A DNA stretch of 17,630 nt from Clostridia bacterium BRH_c25 (GTDB lineage Bacteria > Bacillota_A > Clostridia > Lutisporales > Lutisporaceae). Below, piece by piece: positions 7,204 to 13,455 of the stretch (position 1 is the stretch's first letter; each line of letters opens with the position of its first letter). The stretch is from NCBI GenBank assembly GCA_001515955.1, contig LOES01000100.1:1-17630 (forward strand), given 5' to 3'. A program made the position numbers and the translations under genes. Under the pieces are notes generated by a model that had not been told where the DNA came from, did no database searches, and saw nothing but the letters and a program-made list of their open reading frames with translations.

Positions 7204-8436
7204 TCATTGGTTGGCTTTTCCGAGCTCAAATTCCTGATGAAGTGCATTGACGGCTTCATTGGTTCTTGCGCTTTCTATCAGGCAGGAAATAGTAGTATGA
7301 GAGTCTGAAGTCTGAAGTACCTGGATGTCTTGCTTTGCCAAAGCACTAATAGCTTTTGCCATTACACCGGGAACGCCTCTCATTTTATTTCCTATTATTG
7401 TTACCTTGCTGCAATCAGCCTTCAGCTCATAGTTATAGCCGTAGACTTTTAGGGCTTTCTTCAGCTTCTCAGCATCGTCATTTTCTATTATGAACACCTT
7501 AAAATCGGGATTGACATTGATCATATCTATGCTTATTCCTTCAGCGGCTATGCATTTGAAAAGCTGATTATCATTCTCAAACTCTCCTGCTGAGCCGTCA
7601 AAGAGTATTCTTACTCTTACTCTGCCGCTTATATGAGCTATTGCTGTCAGGAGTTTGTCGCGCTTATCATATTTGTATCTTCTATTCTTGTCACAATTTG
7701 TTATAAGTGTACCTGCCGAGTTGGTCATGGTATTCTTTATGAGGAGAGGTATATTGCTTCGCATAGCAACTTCTACAGCTCTGGGATGGATTACCTTGGC
7801 TCCATACTCTGCCATTTGAAAAACTTCATTGTAATATATGGTATCCATAACCATTGCATCAGGTACAATTCTGGGATCGGCCGTCATAACACCTTCAACA
7901 TCAGTGTATATTTCCACAGCCTCAGCATTCAAGGCTTCCCCCATTATTGCACCGGTGACGTCACTGCCGCCCCTGCCGAGAGTTGTTATTTCACCTTTTT
8001 CAGATTTTCCCTGAAAGCCTGCAACTACCGGTATGACATTCTTCTCTACACAGTCATATATGGATTGGGGATCCACTCTCAAAACTTCTGCATCACCAAA
8101 GCTCTCATCAGTGATTATCCCTGCCTGGCCTCCGGTAAGCACAATACTGTCATAGCCTCTCTTTTTTATTGTGTTTGACAGTATGACACAGGATATGATT
8201 TCTCCGCAGGACATAAGCATATCCATTTCTCTTGGATTGCTTTTTACTCCCACTGAATCTGCGAGGTTTATCAAGGTGTCTGTGGCATAAGGGTCTCCAC
8301 TTCTTCCGATAGCAGAAACAACTACTACAGGGGAAAAACCGTTATTGACTGCTTTTTCTATCTTATCTACAACCATCTCTCTGCTCTCTTTGGTAGCAAC
8401 GGAAGTTCCACCAAACTTCTGTACAAGTAATTTCAT
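7204..8436 (-). CDS. dapG: Aspartate kinase (DapG/LysC type)
   Basis: ATP:L-aspartate 4-phosphotransferase, first step of the aspartate pathway to diaminopimelate, lysine, threonine and methionine, and also of the route that supplies dipicolinic acid precursor. Length (410 residues) fits the monofunctional enzymes. The kinase domain begins with KFGGTSV (residues 7-13) and has ITTLGRGGSDVTGA (about 150-163) and YTDVEGVMTADPR (177-189). Two ACT regulatory domains follow from about 265 to the end, including NKMRGVPGVMAKAISAL. Start ATG is preceded by GGGAGGA at a good spacing. In B. subtilis dapG lies two genes after spoVFB in one operon; here it follows the dpaB 3' part by 237 bases with its own candidate promoter and leader, and asd and dapA are missing. 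The gene symbol rests on synteny; which end product inhibits it cannot be read from the sequence. Confidence 0.93.
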   Translation of the reverse strand: MKLLVQKFGGTSVATKESREMVVDKIEKAVNNGFSPVVVVSAIGRSGDPYATDTLINLADSVGVKSNPREMDMLMSCGEIISCVILSNTIKKRGYDSIVLTGGQAGIITDESFGDAEVLRVDPQSIYDCVEKNVIPVVAGFQGKSEKGEITTLGRGGSDVTGAIMGEALNAEAVEIYTDVEGVMTADPRIVPDAMVMDTIYYNEVFQMAEYGAKVIHPRAVEVAMRSNIPLLIKNTMTNSAGTLITNCDKNRRYKYDKRDKLLTAIAHISGRVRVRILFDGSAGEFENDNQLFKCIAAEGISIDMINVNPDFKVFIIENDDAEKLKKALKVYGYNYELKADCSKVTIIGNKMRGVPGVMAKAISALAKQDIQVLQTSDSHTTISCLIESARTNEAVNALHQEFELGKANQ

Positions 8437-8673: not shown

Positions 8674-8992
8674 TTAATAAGCACTAGAATGCTCAATTAT
8701 AACGGGCTGGTACTGTCTGCCTTCCATTGCCATTTCCACAGTAGACACCAGAAGCTCCATTTTGGCAACAAGAGAATTTCTCTTTGCAGTTGGATTATCC
8801 TGTCCAAAGGGAATAAAATAGAAGTTTTTGGAATTCAGAAGTACCGCCAGATTCTTCGCACTTAACCCGAGTCCATCATTGGTAGAGATTCCTATTACTA
8901 CGGGCCTCCCACCCCTCAATTGAGCTTTTGCCGCCATGAGTACAGGTGTATCGGTAATTCCATTGGCCAGTTTTGCCAAAGTATTGCCTGTA
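8674..8992 (-). CDS. dpaB: Dipicolinate synthase subunit B, 3' part (separated by the intervening element)
   Basis: Encodes the C-terminal ~103 residues of DpaB (SpoVFB), starting at NTLAKLANGITDTPVLMAAK and including RPVVIGISTND, FIPFGQDNP and NSLVAKMELL, all hallmarks of this UbiX/Pad1-like flavoprotein family. There is no start codon or ribosome binding site at its head. The frame stays open for about 35 codons further right, but those read element DNA unrelated to DpaB. The true partner is the 5' part at 12262-12545, in the same orientation and register. Joining at the shared CCTGTA (8987-8992) gives a 198-residue product, against about 200 for B. subtilis SpoVFB. Every family motif I can recall is intact, with no stops or frameshifts, which argues against simple decay. 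It would be expressed only after excision. Confidence 0.92.
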
Positions 8993-8999
8993 GGCAATA
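8982..8999. repeat. Left recombination site of the dpaB element (att half-site junction)
   Basis: TATTGCCTGTAGGCAATA is a near-perfect dyad with 8-bp arms around a central GT (8990-8991). It contains the CCTGTA core (8987-8992) that recurs in direct orientation at 12262-12267. Looser identity extends to AAAG (8978-8981 and 12253-12256). A dyad centred on a non-palindromic dinucleotide is what serine recombinases use as crossover site. Confidence 0.75.
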
Positions 9000-9018
9000 T
9001 TTGCCATACAAATATAAA

Positions 9019-9046
9019 GATGCGAGATACGAGATTCGAGATGCGA
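9019..9046 (+). repeat. Four tandem GATNCGA heptamers
   Basis: GATGCGA, GATACGA, GATTCGA and GATGCGA follow without a gap, starting 27 bases inside the left crossover core. Only the fourth base varies. Function unknown: a binding site for the recombinase or a directionality factor is possible. Confidence 0.8.
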
Positions 9047-9078
9047 GGAAAGCTGGGATATTCCTTATAGGTACAGGT

Positions 9079-9278
9079 ACGGGTAACACGGATCACACGG
9101 ATTTTACACGGAATTCCTACGGAATTACACGGTTATTTTTATTATTTCGATATTGCTACTTTAGTGAGTATAAATACTCTCTGCATTATCAAATACCGAT
9201 TCATTCCTTTATATTATTTTCCTAACCGTGTGTTCCGTGGGTTTCCGTGTTTTTCCGAAGGAAAACCGTGTTACCCGT
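9079..9278. repeat. Long imperfect inverted repeat built of ACACGG/CCGTGT units
   Basis: The left arm (9079-9135) begins ACGGGTAACACGG and ends ACACGGTTA. The right arm (9223-9278) begins TAACCGTGT and ends CCGTGTTACCCGT, so the ends are exact inverted complements. The interiors are imperfect copies of the same short unit: four ACACGG plus one ACGG on the left, four CCGTG on the right. The ~87-bp middle is A/T-rich and holds the hairpin GAGTAT/ATACTC (9166-9179). The right arm contains the stop codon of the RelA/SpoT gene (9271-9273). It may act as a terminator, be a MITE-like passenger, or be part of the element's recombination apparatus. Confidence 0.75.
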
Positions 9279-10581
9279 TCTCTTCTGTGGCCAGTTCGCT
9301 TAGCTTCCTGAGTACGATGGATATTGATTCGGCCAGATTTCCGAGCTGAACACTATCTGGAATTTCCATGCTGTAGACAATTTTGTTCCTGGTTTCCTCA
9401 AGATATTTTATATCCTCAAGGAGCAGTTCATCATCAGTTATGGCTCTTTTTACGGTATTGGCCAAGGATTCTCTGTGAGCAATGCCGGCCTTTGAGTCAA
9501 CCTTACTGCTTTTTTCCTGTTCAAAACTCTTTATTGATTTCTCCAGTAATATCCATTTACTTATAAAAAAGCTCAGCTGTTCATTTTCCTTTTTCAGCAT
9601 TATCTGCTTTTGTACAGATACATAGGGATTGTTGTAGCTGGACTCATATTTTGCCTCAACAAAATGACTGTAGTAATCCGGATTCTGATTCAAAACAAGG
9701 TCTACAAAATAGTCAACAATTGTTTTGTATCCCCTGGCAGTTCTTATATTGCAGAGTGAATGCAGGTATGAACAGATTTTTCTTGGATTATCCAGCTCTA
9801 TCCTCTGAAGGAATCTCAATAATATATCAACCCTGCCCATAAAATAGTCATCCAGCAGATCACAGTCTGTCTTCTCCCTTATCAGAGCAGCGAGCTCATA
9901 ATGATTGTTGAACTGCTGTTCAATTGTTGCAATCCTGTGTTTAAAGGCTTTTTGAAGTCTTTCCAGTGCGATTTCCCCCGAAAGCACCAGGCCGTTCAGT
10001 TCATCCAATATAGTGAACTCTTCCTCGGAAAGTCTTCCTATCTGAGGCTTGTAGGCAAGGTCATGCTCTACTTCAGCCCATGCATGCATCAGAGCGGAGG
10101 CAATCTGTATCTCTACCTGGGCGTGTGCAAATCTTTTATTGTTTTCCTCAAGCTTATCCTCATCTATCCGCACTCTGTAGTGAACCGCATCATAACCTGT
10201 GAAACGCCTCTTGAAGGGATCATCCTGATGAAGCTTCTGTTCTGCACTGGGAAATCTCTTAACCTTTTCCGTATTGAATTCAGATTCTATAAGCTTCCCT
10301 ATTTCCTCTCTGTCTCCTGGGAAGTAGATGGCTATCCTTACTCCGGAAAGATCCACTATGTCACTGTATATCTGTTCTATACTCTGATATTTCTTTGCTG
10401 CATTCCTTTTAATAAGCTTCTCTTTCAGGCTGTCAGGTTTCTTTGCACGATAGGTCACTATAGCCCTTATTCCACTTCTTTGTATTATAGTTTCGCAAAT
10501 CATTGCTACCTGGTGTGCCAGCTCGTTATAAAAATCATATTCCTTTGCGTATCTTAGCAGAAAGCTGTCAATTATACTCAT
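9271..10581 (-). CDS. RelA/SpoT synthetase-domain protein, element cargo
   Basis: 436 residues. A RelA/SpoT nucleotide pyrophosphokinase domain covers about 35-185. It shows RAKKPDSLKEKL (45-56, substrate-loop Arg, Lys and Ser), IVDLSGVRI with the probable catalytic Asp77, RFTGYDAVHYRV (126-137), and VEIQIASALMHAWAEVEHDLAYK around Glu157 and Glu172-His173. The canonical EIQIRT is EIQIAS here. There is no HD hydrolase domain before it and no TGS or ACT domain after it; the last ~250 residues are mostly helical. Relatives make (p)ppGpp, make (p)ppApp, or pyrophosphorylate tRNA as toxins (toxSAS, CapRel); sequence alone does not say which applies. No obvious antitoxin gene is adjacent. The ATG has AAGGGGA a few bases upstream and a strong extended -10 promoter at 10694-10722. 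The stop codon lies inside the right arm of the inverted repeat. Confidence 0.85.
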   Translation of the reverse strand: MSIIDSFLLRYAKEYDFYNELAHQVAMICETIIQRSGIRAIVTYRAKKPDSLKEKLIKRNAAKKYQSIEQIYSDIVDLSGVRIAIYFPGDREEIGKLIESEFNTEKVKRFPSAEQKLHQDDPFKRRFTGYDAVHYRVRIDEDKLEENNKRFAHAQVEIQIASALMHAWAEVEHDLAYKPQIGRLSEEEFTILDELNGLVLSGEIALERLQKAFKHRIATIEQQFNNHYELAALIREKTDCDLLDDYFMGRVDILLRFLQRIELDNPRKICSYLHSLCNIRTARGYKTIVDYFVDLVLNQNPDYYSHFVEAKYESSYNNPYVSVQKQIMLKKENEQLSFFISKWILLEKSIKSFEQEKSSKVDSKAGIAHRESLANTVKRAITDDELLLEDIKYLEETRNKIVYSMEIPDSVQLGNLAESISIVLRKLSELATEENG

Positions 10582-10693
10582 ACAATTTCCCCTTTTTTAG
10601 TGTTCGTTAACATAACATATATTCTGTCTTCTAAAATGTTAATAATGCACTTCCTTGAATTACTTGACGAAGCACATTAGTCCTTCTATAAAA

Positions 10694-10722
10694 ATTATAC
10701 CAATTAAACAGTTGTCGCACAA
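10694..10722 (-). promoter_or_regulatory. Promoter of the RelA/SpoT-domain gene with overlapping palindrome
   Basis: The minus strand has a perfect extended -10, TGGTATAAT (TATAAT at 10694-10699), and a weak -35, TTGTGC (10717-10722), at 17 bp. The -35 lies in a small dyad, GTTGT-CGC-ACAAC (10711-10723), which could be an operator. The leader would be about 105 nt. Confidence 0.6.
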
Positions 10723-10729
10723 CATACGT

Positions 10730-10756
10730 AAAGTGCCAAAATATTCTCAGCACTTT
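10730..10756. promoter_or_regulatory. Hairpin between the divergent cargo genes
   Basis: AAAGTGC (10730-10736) and GCACTTT (10750-10756) form a 7-bp stem with a 13-nt loop, followed by three more T. It could insulate the two divergent promoters. No upstream + strand gene needs a terminator here. Confidence 0.4.
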
Positions 10757-10765
10757 TTTCAATTT

Positions 10766-10805
10766 TAGGCGGACACGCCTATTATTACTCATCAGCTAAT
10801 ATAAT
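10766..10805 (+). promoter_or_regulatory. Candidate promoter of the recombinase, sigma-E-like, with palindrome
   Basis: AATATAAT (10798-10805) matches the sigma-E -10 CATACAAT at six of eight positions. CGCCTATT, 14 bp upstream (10776-10783), matches five of eight of the -35. The same -10 reads TATAAT for sigma-A but then lacks a -35. The palindrome TAGGCG-GACA-CGCCTA (10766-10781) covers the -35 and may be an operator. The predicted start point (about 10812) precedes the ribosome binding site at 10825. Match is degenerate. Confidence 0.4.
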
Positions 10806-10835
10806 TATATGATTATAGAAATTCAAGGTGAGTAT

Positions 10836-12254
10836 ATGGAAATGCATAAGAATTTAAAAGCTGCCCTGTATATAAGAGTCAGCACGGAAGAGCAGGCTCA
10901 AGACGGTCAATCTGCCTCTGCGCAGGTGGAAACCCTTAAGCAATATTGCTGTGCTTATGGTATAGAAGTATTTGACATATATATGGATTTAGGCCTTTCC
11001 GGTAAAAAGCTAAAGGATAGGAAAGAGCTTGAGCGGTTGATGGAAGCTTGCATCAGAAGACAGTTCGATATGGTGCTTGTCTGGAAAATATCAAGACTCT
11101 CCAGGAGCCTCAAAGACTTGCTGTATCTTATAGATGTTTTTGAAAGGAATAATGTCCACTTTGCAAGCTGCTCGGAAATGTTCGACACCTCTACTCCCGT
11201 AGGGAGGATGACTCTCCAGTTGTTAGGATCTATAGCAGAGTTCGAAAGAAACACTATTGTGGAAAATGTAAAACTTGGACTCAAGGAGTTTGCAAGAAAA
11301 GGAGGAAAGGCATCTGCAGTGCTCGGATATGATAATGTAGATAAAAAACTTGTAATAAATGAAACTGAGGCCGGTTTAGTCAGGCTTATTTTCAATCTGT
11401 ATACTGAAAATGCCATGAATTTTACAGCCATTGCACGTTACCTGAACAGTCTGGGCTACAAAACCAAGAGGGGAAGCGAGTTTAGATGCAGCAACATCTC
11501 TTATATTATTCACAATCCTGTATATATTGGCCTTAACAGGCACAGTATGAATACGGAAAGGGAATACAGCATCCGGGGCATGCATCCTTCAATTATTGAT
11601 TCCGGACAATGGTGCAAAGCACAGAGCTTAAGCTCAGAAAACGAGAAAAGGACGGTCAGTAAAAATAGCAATACAGAGTCATTAACTTTACCGGTTATTT
11701 GTATGAGGTGCAATTCGCAAATGAGAGTATTCTATACTTATTCGAAAGGTAAAAGGTATAAATATCTACGGTGCTGCAGCTGTTCCAACTATGTAAATGT
11801 TGAAAGGCTTATGAAAGTTGTTTCCCGGGCAATTATTGCACTTGTTGATGACAAGTCTGCACAGGAGCCGGCTTACAGGCTGATCTGCCAGGATACTATG
11901 TCTATTAAGTCCGGTGGCACGGAGATAACTGCAATAGAAGCAGAAATAAACCTCCTGCAAAAAAGCAAGGCCCGCTATCTAAGTCTTTTTGAGGGTTATA
12001 AGATCTCTGATACCAAAGCTTTTATTGATAGAATTGCAGAAATAGAACTTCAGATAAAAAAGCTTGAGCAAAAGAAGCTTGAATTAAACAGGGCTGCTTT
12101 TGCTTCCAATACAACAGCAGATTACAAAGAATACTTTTGTGGGCTTAAGGATAGGCTTTCCGCAATGGAGCCTGAAGCACTTTCTCAGACGGTCTGCCTT
12201 ATCAGAAGCATTGAAGCCTTCAGAGATGAAATAAAGATAGTTTTGTATTTATAA
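10836..12254 (+). CDS. Large serine recombinase of the dpaB element (SpoIVCA-like)
   Basis: About 472 residues. The resolvase catalytic domain has LYIRVSTEEQ, with the nucleophile Ser16, plus KISRLSRS and AEFERN. A recombinase domain follows (LGYDN to the NPVYIGLNRH region). A zinc ribbon with CMRC and CCSC pairs comes next, then a coiled-coil-rich C-terminal segment (INLLQKSKARYLSL to KKLEQKKLE). This is the layout of serine integrases and of SpoIVCA, which excises skin. An ATG at 10809 is possible, but AAGGTGA (10825-10831) points to the ATG at 10836 (or 10842), and the candidate -10 box overlaps the earlier codon. The stop codon (12252-12254) is 8 bases from the crossover core, so the gene's 3' end is part of the attachment site. 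It is the only gene in the element on the + strand. I infer that it excises the element during sporulation; no separate directionality factor is visible. Confidence 0.93.
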   Translation: MEMHKNLKAALYIRVSTEEQAQDGQSASAQVETLKQYCCAYGIEVFDIYMDLGLSGKKLKDRKELERLMEACIRRQFDMVLVWKISRLSRSLKDLLYLIDVFERNNVHFASCSEMFDTSTPVGRMTLQLLGSIAEFERNTIVENVKLGLKEFARKGGKASAVLGYDNVDKKLVINETEAGLVRLIFNLYTENAMNFTAIARYLNSLGYKTKRGSEFRCSNISYIIHNPVYIGLNRHSMNTEREYSIRGMHPSIIDSGQWCKAQSLSSENEKRTVSKNSNTESLTLPVICMRCNSQMRVFYTYSKGKRYKYLRCCSCSNYVNVERLMKVVSRAIIALVDDKSAQEPAYRLICQDTMSIKSGGTEITAIEAEINLLQKSKARYLSLFEGYKISDTKAFIDRIAEIELQIKKLEQKKLELNRAAFASNTTADYKEYFCGLKDRLSAMEPEALSQTVCLIRSIEAFRDEIKIVLYL

Positions 12255-12272
12255 AGCCTTCCCTGTACAGGG
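12242..12272. repeat. Right recombination site of the dpaB element
   Basis: The CCTGTA core (12262-12267) is a direct repeat of 8987-8992 and here lies in the 12-bp palindrome CCCTGTACAGGG (12261-12272). The aligned flank shares AAAG--TT-CCTGTA with the left site. TTTGTAT (12242-12248) on the element side is inverted relative to ATACAAA (9006-9012) on the element side of the left junction. A circle would therefore carry a roughly symmetrical attachment site with these as outer arms. Confidence 0.75.
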
Positions 12273-12545
12273 CGCTATTACTAAGATGTCCATAAGCTTC
12301 TTTGGCCCTATCGGCTCAGCATCAGCTATAGTCCTTATTGCATCATGCCCCGTTATTTCCTCAAATCTCCTTACCCAGTCTTCTGCTTTTCCGAACCTTG
12401 TGTCAATGGAAGCAGCATTTGTAGAAAATATCGGGTATACATTGGCCTTTTGCTGAACAAGCTTTTCCGCTTCAGGTACTAATTTGTCAAAGGTGCAAAA
12501 TGATCCGGTCACTGCCAATCCAATATTGTAGCCTTCCAGTTTCAT
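12249..12545 (-). CDS. dpaB: Dipicolinate synthase subunit B, 5' part (truncated by the element)
   Basis: 98-codon frame with a good start: AAAGGAGTG precedes the ATG. Residues 1-95 are typical DpaB: YNIGLAVTGSFCTFDK (flavoprotein phosphate-binding start), ANVYPIFSTNAASIDTRFG, AEPIGPKKL, and ILVIAPCTG. The last three residues (KAL) and the TAA at 12249-12251 come from the element. Restored at the core, the sequence reads VIAPCTGNTLAKLANGITD, matching the family across the join. The ATG lies 16 bases after the dpaA stop, so dpaA and dpaB form one transcription unit. With DpaA, DpaB converts dihydroxy-tetrahydrodipicolinate to dipicolinic acid in the mother cell. The 98-residue product alone lacks half the fold and should be inactive. 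Confidence 0.93.
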   Translation of the reverse strand: MKLEGYNIGLAVTGSFCTFDKLVPEAEKLVQQKANVYPIFSTNAASIDTRFGKAEDWVRRFEEITGHDAIRTIADAEPIGPKKLMDILVIAPCTGKAL

Positions 12546-12561
12546 ATTACACTCCTTTCTG

Positions 12562-13425
12562 CTAACTATCGCATAGAATTTTCTTTATAGTATCGTATAT
12601 ATAAGCCGCCGCTGACCTGCATGCAATTTTCCCCGGAATTCCAAGAGCGTGAATAGTTTTTATACCTTTTTCCGCCGCATAAGCATAATCAATTCCTCCA
12701 GGGTTTGACGCCAGGTCCAGTACCAATGCATCTTCCTTGATCAAATCAAGCAGCCTGCAATCCAGCATCATTGCAGGAGCTGTATTCACTATTACATCCA
12801 TTTTCCCCAAATACATCGGAAGCTCTTCTATTGGCACAGCCTTCATACCCCTTGTATTTATCCAGGTAAGGTCGGAGTCCTTTCTCGCCTCCACGTATAC
12901 CTCCGACTTTAAAGCCTTTAAATACCCGGAAAGCAGTTTGCCTATTCTCCCATAACCAAGTACGAGAATCTTACTTCCGAACACTGTCTCTCTCGTCTCG
13001 GTGATTATGATGGACAGAGCACCTTCAACCGTTGGGATGGTGTTCAGTATCTGATAGCCTTCATCGTTAAAGTAGTCCGTATATTCTACTCCGTATTTTT
13101 CTGCAAGCTCCTTTGAATAATTGTTTATTGCACCTAGCAAAAGTTTCTTCCCTGTACCGAGTTTTTTAAACAATTCTTCGATTTCAATATCAACGCTTGA
13201 ATACTTTGTATTGATTTTGTTCATGTCCTTGGAAAACGGTATTGGACAGACTAATATGTCGGAATTCTTCAGTGCATCATCAAGAGATAAATAATTTTTT
13301 ACGTTTCTTATCTCCACGTTATCCATTCCGAAAGTAGAGATATTTTTCCCGTTTCTCTCAAATATTGCTGCAAGTTCAACAAGCCTGTCGTCACCGCCTA
13401 CAATAAGGTATCTTGAGCTTTTCAT
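12562..13425 (-). CDS. dpaA: Dipicolinate synthase subunit A
   Basis: About 287 residues. DpaA (SpoVFA) is the dehydrogenase-like subunit that, with DpaB, makes pyridine-2,6-dicarboxylate, the calcium chelator packed into the spore core for heat resistance. The N-terminal half starts RYLIVGGDDRL and has LNTIPTVEGAL. The C-terminal Rossmann fold shows VLGYGRIGKLL (nucleotide-binding GxGxxG), then LVLDLASNPGGIDY and ALGIPGKIACRSAA, all diagnostic. An ATG at 13440 would add five residues, but GGAGGAA lies inside that extension, 6 nt before the ATG at 13425, so the later start is chosen. A sigma-K-type promoter lies immediately upstream and dpaB immediately downstream. The gene is intact, so only DpaB needs the rearrangement. 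Confidence 0.95.
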   Translation of the reverse strand: MKSSRYLIVGGDDRLVELAAIFERNGKNISTFGMDNVEIRNVKNYLSLDDALKNSDILVCPIPFSKDMNKINTKYSSVDIEIEELFKKLGTGKKLLLGAINNYSKELAEKYGVEYTDYFNDEGYQILNTIPTVEGALSIIITETRETVFGSKILVLGYGRIGKLLSGYLKALKSEVYVEARKDSDLTWINTRGMKAVPIEELPMYLGKMDVIVNTAPAMMLDCRLLDLIKEDALVLDLASNPGGIDYAYAAEKGIKTIHALGIPGKIACRSAAAYIYDTIKKILCDS

Positions 13426-13455
13426 ATTAAATTCCTCCATTATTAAAGACTAGTA

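Follow-up and report, generated by a model that had tools for sequence, protein, structure and literature searches.

A compact element with a large serine recombinase splits the dipicolinate synthase gene dpaB in a clostridial order

A split dpaB and its recurrence

In the 17,630-nucleotide stretch of Clostridia bacterium BRH_c25 analysed here (contig LOES01000100.1, hereafter the window), dpaB, which encodes subunit B of dipicolinate synthase, is broken between Pro-Cys-Thr and Gly-Asn by an inserted element of 3,275 bp. The hexamer CCTGTA occurs as a direct repeat on the + strand at 8987 and 12262, 3,275 bp apart, and joining the two copies gives a single 198-residue frame that reads VIAPCTGNTLAKLANGITD over the junction. 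Using dipicolinate synthase B models, we found that the two pieces are complementary: they cover positions 1–97 and 92–195 of NF006161 (196 positions), and the upstream piece also matches positions 2–92 of TIGR02852. The joined protein is 84.5% identical over 194 amino acids (aa), without gaps, to the product of the uninterrupted dpaB of a relative, G008. A listed 140-aa open reading frame (ORF) reaching 9096 begins within the element, and the true downstream part of dpaB spans approximately 8674–8992. A first-pass annotation of this DNA had described dpaB halves on one strand about 3.3 kb apart, which the repeat positions and family-model matches bear out, and a shared CCTGTA with a 198-residue in-frame join, which we reproduced at 8987/12262. 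The intact large serine recombinase that it had placed between the halves is a 481-aa protein with Resolvase and Recombinase domains, and the comparison with uninterrupted relatives that it had proposed is given by the gapless G008 alignment.

The recombinase matches the integrase family phrog_95 (1.6e-112) and is the only phage-related gene in the window's element. Its companion, rel, which the first-pass annotation had left unnamed, encodes a RelA/SpoT-domain protein and matches PHROGs of unknown function. A group II intron or intein was ruled out, as the insert encodes a serine recombinase and rel. The aspartate kinase gene is the same neighbour of dpaB in split and intact relatives.

Starting from the relative G002 (locus L002), we reached an order of 22 genomes, which is probably Lutisporales because the first 118 rel residues of G018 are identical to Lutisporaceae-labelled P0277. 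In this order dpaB is split at the same codon in 10 of the 22 genomes. In seven of these the two pieces share a contig and a strand (G002, G004, G007, G010, G013, G016 and G020), which argues against a chance split; in the other three the split lies at contig edges, with one piece adjoining a recombinase (G001, G005 and G006). dpaB is continuous across the site in six genomes (G008, G009, G015, G019, G021 and G023), while neither dpaA nor dpaB was present in 6 of the 22, and the split is the commoner state among the order's dpaB carriers (10/16). An assembly artefact was ruled out, since the same structure appears in independent genomes and contigs.

All 8 resolved elements, including that of the window, contain the recombinase and rel in the same order, with core-to-core lengths of 2,648–3,985 bp in the seven elements measured, and dpaA and the operon order are kept in the split relatives. 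The description of the element as non-phage holds, and as two-gene it fits the window's clade; in a sister clade, four elements (L002, L198, L199 and L204) share a conserved third ORF of 211–235 aa. This ORF has hydrophobic helices at its start and sits between rel and the downstream dpaB piece. As anatomy, the excisable-type element in a clostridial dpaB that the first-pass annotation had recognised is much strengthened by the conserved split, recombinase and Rel of the relatives, by the selection acting on both pieces, by the clean joined site in G008 and by the sigma-K-like promoter at dpaA.

Protein searches returned 3,438 matches to the recombinase and 319 to the truncated DpaB piece (with length limits excluding full-length DpaB), of which the best 120 each were used, and 2,359 to rel, of which the best 120 were listed and 119 of those compared. 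Among these matches, 33 longest-contig sizes are shared between the recombinase and DpaB-piece sets, against 0–1 with shifted sizes, 39 between the recombinase and rel sets, against 0–4, and 15 are common to all three; a few short contigs may coincide in size by chance. In 43 chosen truncated DpaBs, when aligned, the frame departs from the DpaB family at the same PCT. A scan of viral contigs yielded 80 related integrases, none adjoining a dpaB match; a scan of genome contigs gave minimum counts and not a census. Relatives of the recombinase in G246 and G082 lie outside dpaB within the stretch examined.

Beyond the order, a search of 60 genomes around Pseudobacteroides cellulosolvens found dpaB split in three: the P. 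cellulosolvens isolate (pieces 84 kb apart), G064 (59 kb) and G065 (approximately 5.7 kb). G064 and G065 have an intact second dpaB, and the second copy in P. cellulosolvens (L216) has lost most of its upstream half. Among the genes within the 84 kb of P. cellulosolvens (G003; L212 and L215) are some resembling those of NAD metabolism and one resembling a dockerin-type glycoside hydrolase; its dpaB site carries an inverted arm of 14 bp.

Table 1 Features of the split dpaB locus in the window
Feature	Position	Strand	Details
dpaB, upstream piece	12262..12545	-	approximately codons 1–95; ORF continues to 12249, giving a 98-aa truncated product
dpaB, downstream piece	8674..8992	-	Gly-Asn-Thr through stop; NF006161 92–195
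Crossover core, copy 1	8987..8992	.	CCTGTA (TACAGG on the dpaB strand); direct repeat, exact joining
Crossover core, copy 2	12262..12267	.	CCTGTA; direct repeat, exact joining
Large serine recombinase	10809..12254	+	481 aa (472 aa from inner ATG); PF00239 3.3e-42, PF07508 5.7e-19
rel, RelA/SpoT-domain protein	9271..10581	-	436 aa; PF04607 3.3e-14
dpaA, intact	12562..13440	-	NF006162 1.5e-81, TIGR02853 5.8e-59
Sigma-K-like promoter of dpaA	13456..13485	-	TCAC, 17 nt, CATATTATA; in 11/11 order loci that include the upstream region
Aspartate kinase gene (lysC), downstream of dpaB	7204..8436	-	named from sequence and known operon order, without family search
Possible housekeeping promoter of rel	10694..10722	-	TTGTGC, 17 nt, TATAAT; weak first hexamer; read from aligned intergenic region
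Terminator-like hairpin between rel and recombinase	10766..10781	+	1 found, 0.1 expected
Candidate recombinase-site arm ATACAAA	9006..9012	.	13 nt from core; read from sequence; pairs with 12242–12248
Candidate recombinase-site arm TTTGTAT	12242..12248	.	14 nt from core; read from sequence

Selection, expression and descent of the split gene

Comparison of these loci makes it very likely, in our judgement, that the element's own large serine recombinase excises it in the sporulating mother cell and thereby rebuilds dpaB. The recombinase would pair the two sites and exchange strands within TACAG, the sequence on the dpaB strand that is common to both ends of the resolved elements. Excision would rejoin the dpaB frame exactly, allowing dipicolinate synthesis, and would leave dpaA-dpaB-lysC as a single operon read from the sigma-K-like promoter, together with a free circle bearing the recombinase and rel. 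Because excision would be limited to the dying mother cell, the spore chromosome would keep the element. We infer, as the first-pass annotation did, a developmentally programmed excision that gates dipicolinic acid synthesis; the trees suggest that the split has been inherited through the order, with losses such as that in G008.

Ratios of non-synonymous to synonymous substitution rates (dN/dS) indicate that both dpaB pieces are under purifying selection. The downstream piece has a dN/dS of 0.024–0.099 in 7 of 13 split–split pairs with finite dS, the recombinase 0.106–0.135 (3 pairs) and rel 0.050–0.086 (5 pairs), the remaining pairs being saturated. An ordinary insertion might instead have killed dpaB, leaving an organism without dipicolinic acid or spores. 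Pathway loss does occur in the order, as the six genomes lacking both dpaA and dpaB attest, and one recombinase (L201) is truncated. We nevertheless give this explanation little credence: in separate species both pieces have stayed open and evolve under purifying selection, the split prevails among the dpaB carriers, and the operon order is retained along with dpaA and the sigma-K-like promoter of that gene. On the same evidence of selection, a pseudogene was rejected.

That both pieces are open in the window, with a GTG upstream of the downstream piece, might suggest two separate proteins that assemble into a working DpaB with no excision of DNA. However, in 7 of 12 downstream pieces there is no codon upstream of the join at which translation could start in frame, and the rel stop codon falls 16–23 nt before the core in three elements (L201–L203). 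On these grounds assembly in trans was rejected, and we put its chances at close to nil.

An alignment of dpaA upstream regions yielded a sigma-K-like pattern (TCAC or ACAC, 17 nt, CATANNAT(A/G)) that is present in 11 of the 15 loci examined; the four without it are L201 and L199, in which the region is missing, and L211 and P. cellulosolvens, which belong to other orders. It is the sole match to the pattern in each of the 11 loci, with 0.03 expected per shuffled window, and it fits the sigma-K consensus. In C. difficile, dpaAB is sigma-K dependent (PMC3789822). Within the element, the possible rel promoter at 10694–10722 was not picked up by a consensus scan.

The dpaB tree comprised 42 rows, with duplicates of G008, G015, G019 and G026 and without L204, L205, L206 and G058 (one piece or no usable piece); the recombinase tree comprised 13 of 14 dpaB-linked rows (L204 being too short) and 24 chosen others. 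The dpaB tree joins the window to the intact G008 (100/95) within a group made up of five split rows and two of G008 (97/93), and the split state needs four changes. All ten recombinases from the order fall into a single clade (100/98), and their tree shows the two main groups of the dpaB tree, with the placement of L200 less sure (83/90). A search with one query and one cut-off (E<=1e-40) did not detect the recombinase in any of the order's 12 non-split genomes. Because the trees agree in their main groups and the recombinase was not found in those genomes, the split appears to be ancient and to have been passed down, for the most part, through much of the order's history. G008 would reflect either a precise loss or an assembly that caught the excised form. 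The recombinases of P. cellulosolvens, G064 and G065 form a clade of their own beside the order's, three non-dpaB integrases lying between the two, and the dpaB site may therefore have been captured more than once.

Recombination sites, Rel and the direction of excision

Two sites seen at one end only deviate from TACAG: L206 (TACAC) and L204 (AACAG). A TACAAAA-type arm, as at the 12242–12248 end of the window's element, was found again at that end in related elements. When nine sites were compared with 2,000 shuffles each, the symmetry of the inverted arms around the core was equalled by 60 shuffles or fewer at six, and was strongest in L199, L202, G064 and P. cellulosolvens; the arms of the window, L203 and L200 were not significant in this test, and host half-site pairs gave a significant dyad in 0 of 9. 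Separately, an inverted repeat with 13-bp arms (ACGGGTAACACGG) flanks a repeat-rich 174 bp at window positions 9079–9278 and is possibly a miniature element. It falls in a further 278 bp separating rel from the core, a stretch absent from L201–L203.

By its domain, conserved core residues and predicted fold, Rel belongs to the RelA/SpoT family, with (p)ppGpp synthesis as a possible activity. The core residues are kept in 53 aligned relatives. The Rel model (predicted local distance difference test, pLDDT, 85) resembles small alarmone synthetases over its first approximately 200 aa, with a TM-score of 0.29–0.38 by query length and up to 0.80 by target, and resembles CapRel more weakly. The modelled fold of this part is shared with RelP/RelQ (PDB 6ewz, 2be3 and 5dec), whereas the additional helical half belongs to Rel; the aligned Rel rows read EIQ[IV]A[ST] where two aligned PDB relatives have EIQIRT. 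The helical half ends in RN..(V/I)HG in several relatives, presumably reminiscent of HEPN domains, and Tyr or Phe replaces the His in element copies. PADLOC returned a single candidate-defence match for Rel (PDC-S33, 1.7e-8). Shorter rel relatives, ORFs of approximately 320 codons with 47–50% identity, lie away from dpaB in G017, G019, G012 and G015 (L242–L245), and in G018 a rel start (L247; 86% identity over 116 aa) adjoins ymxH at a contig end. We take Rel to be a conserved passenger, mainly an element-maintenance or stress gene in its own right rather than an established component of the switch.

Whether the element encodes a factor that sets the direction of recombination was addressed in four elements of the window's clade (window, L201, L202 and L203). 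Among their 74 ORFs of at least 33 aa, only the recombinase, rel and a rel-antisense frame match in all four, and no hidden small skr-like ORF was found. With no candidate in these elements, direction would have to be set by Rel, by a protein of the host, by a peptide that is very small or changes quickly, or by the recombinase on its own; a host protein or Rel is a possible excision factor. Two observations speak against Rel in this role: the Pseudobacteroides elements have no rel match, and in G018, where the rel start lies at a contig end, dpaA, dpaB and the recombinase were not found. We did not treat a directionality factor as a defining trait of intervening elements, since it is known in some members only. 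A structure model of the recombinase (predicted template modelling score, pTM, 0.34) was too poor and was left unused.

Several points weigh against excision by the element's own recombinase in the mother cell. A second dpaB may be present elsewhere in the window's genome. Pattern and consensus scans of the aligned intergenic region revealed no recognisable mother-cell promoter upstream of the recombinase, and no third gene is conserved as an excision factor in the four window-clade elements, though known relatives need one. The window's own site has no significant dyad, 1,135 of 2,000 shuffles being as good. In G013 (L201) the recombinase ORF is only approximately 372 aa long; with the split and rel kept, either decay of the element or a faulty assembly would account for this. 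The two trees also conflict with support inside the sister clade, the dpaB tree pairing L198 with L199 (99/87) and the recombinase tree pairing L002 with L199 (99/91). Moreover, the absence of the recombinase from 12 genomes reflects a single query and cut-off, and an empty answer is no proof.

The missing promoter and the missing separate directionality factor, together with the clean joined site of G008, where the recombinase was not found, would also suit an element that leaves and re-enters the chromosome randomly or under stress, behaving as a mobile element or phase switch independent of sporulation, with carriers of the joined form incidental. We consider this unlikely. The element interrupts a mother-cell gene that is transcribed from a sigma-K-like promoter, and the agreement of the dpaB and recombinase trees in their main groups fits inheritance more than free movement. 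In addition, the elements interrupting sigK, spsM, gerE and dpaB/spoVFB, which the first-pass annotation had named as precedents, are in print as excised specifically in sporulation (PMC5595907, PMC4191935).

A split sigK and known intervening elements

In a sister lineage, a second sporulation gene, sigK, is in two pieces 1.61–1.63 kb apart, a state found in 5 of the 22 genomes (G012, G015, G017, G021 and G023). The insert holds a single 449-aa serine recombinase, the other four being 64–91% identical to that of G023, which shares 27% identity with the dpaB recombinase. The loci are L248 (2108–4455, G023) and L249–L252, and AAATGAAATATT is common to the junctions. None of these five genomes has a split dpaB, and six split-dpaB genomes have a full-length sigK (G004, G007, G010, G013, G016 and G020). 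In G001, which has a split dpaB, the upstream sigK piece stands alone on one contig and a partial sigK spanning the join lies on another; G014 has the upstream piece alone, and no full sigK match was obtained in G002, G005 or G006.

Mother-cell excision of the dpaB element could be extended to a bolder scheme, which we regard as doubtful. The element would be a two-gene switch with no separate factor, in which Rel or its starvation nucleotide flips the recombinase from integration to excision and the alarmone state of the mother cell times the rebuilding of dpaB. Late spore development across the order would then be governed by minimal switches, in dpaB in one lineage and through the one-recombinase sigK insert in another.

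The vfbin insert in spoVFB was reportedly described by Abe et al. 2013. Inserts in print comprise vfbin, skin, vrin, gin, SP-beta (in spsM) and yin (PMC4191935, PMC5595907, PMC10747680, PMC6957869), and vfbin, from Bacillus weihenstephanensis KBAB4, is described as excised during sporulation (cited in PMC4191935, PMC10747680 and PMC6957869). It interrupts the same enzyme subunit as the window's element; compared by description only, it is a Bacillus insert with phage-related genes (PMC4191935), whereas the window's element carries no phage genes. gin, in gerE of Bacillus cereus ATCC 10987, is like the window's element in being non-phage, lying within a mother-cell gene and having a serine recombinase and a short shared sequence (9 bp in gin), at which gin is excised. 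It differs in scale: gin spans 28.6 kb and 31 genes, with three recombinases plus the separate factor GirX (PMC5595907), whereas the window's element has a single recombinase in 3.3 kb and no factor that we could recognise. The sigK insert skin of Bacillus subtilis and Clostridioides difficile is likewise removed by a serine recombinase, rebuilding a mother-cell gene (PMC6957869, PMC5025042). It occupies another gene and depends on a small directionality protein, Skr in B. subtilis (64 aa, its gene overlapping that of the recombinase; PMC6957869) and CD1234 in C. difficile (72 aa; PMC5025042), no counterpart of which was found in the window-clade elements. yin, in the sporulation gene yabG of Clostridium botulinum V73, is clostridial with its recombinase inside, but is described as prophage-like and from one strain (PMC10747680), whereas the window-type element is spread across an order and lacks phage genes.

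By sequence, the window's element has the traits of an intervening element: it lies in a mother-cell sporulation gene, encodes a large serine recombinase and has a short core whose joining would restore the frame. We found no report in the open-access literature of a split dpaB in Clostridia or of an order-wide minimal element. A dpaB/spoVFB insert, vfbin, being already known in Bacillus, it is probably the order-wide, minimal clostridial form that is new.

Most of the sporulation inserts known are large remnants of prophages, present in certain strains or species. In this order, by contrast, dpaB more often than not carries an insert of 2.6–4.0 kb with the same two genes, and the insert tracks the host tree in its main groups. 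An alarmone-synthetase relative locked within a spore-gene switch would be an unexpected partner. The small size of the element makes it testable how a serine recombinase times excision without a visible directionality factor, and P. cellulosolvens offers a cultured test case because little of the upstream half remains in its second dpaB copy. Given that the split is the commoner state and agrees with the host tree, a germline-to-soma-like loss of DNA looks to be a standing part of development in this order.

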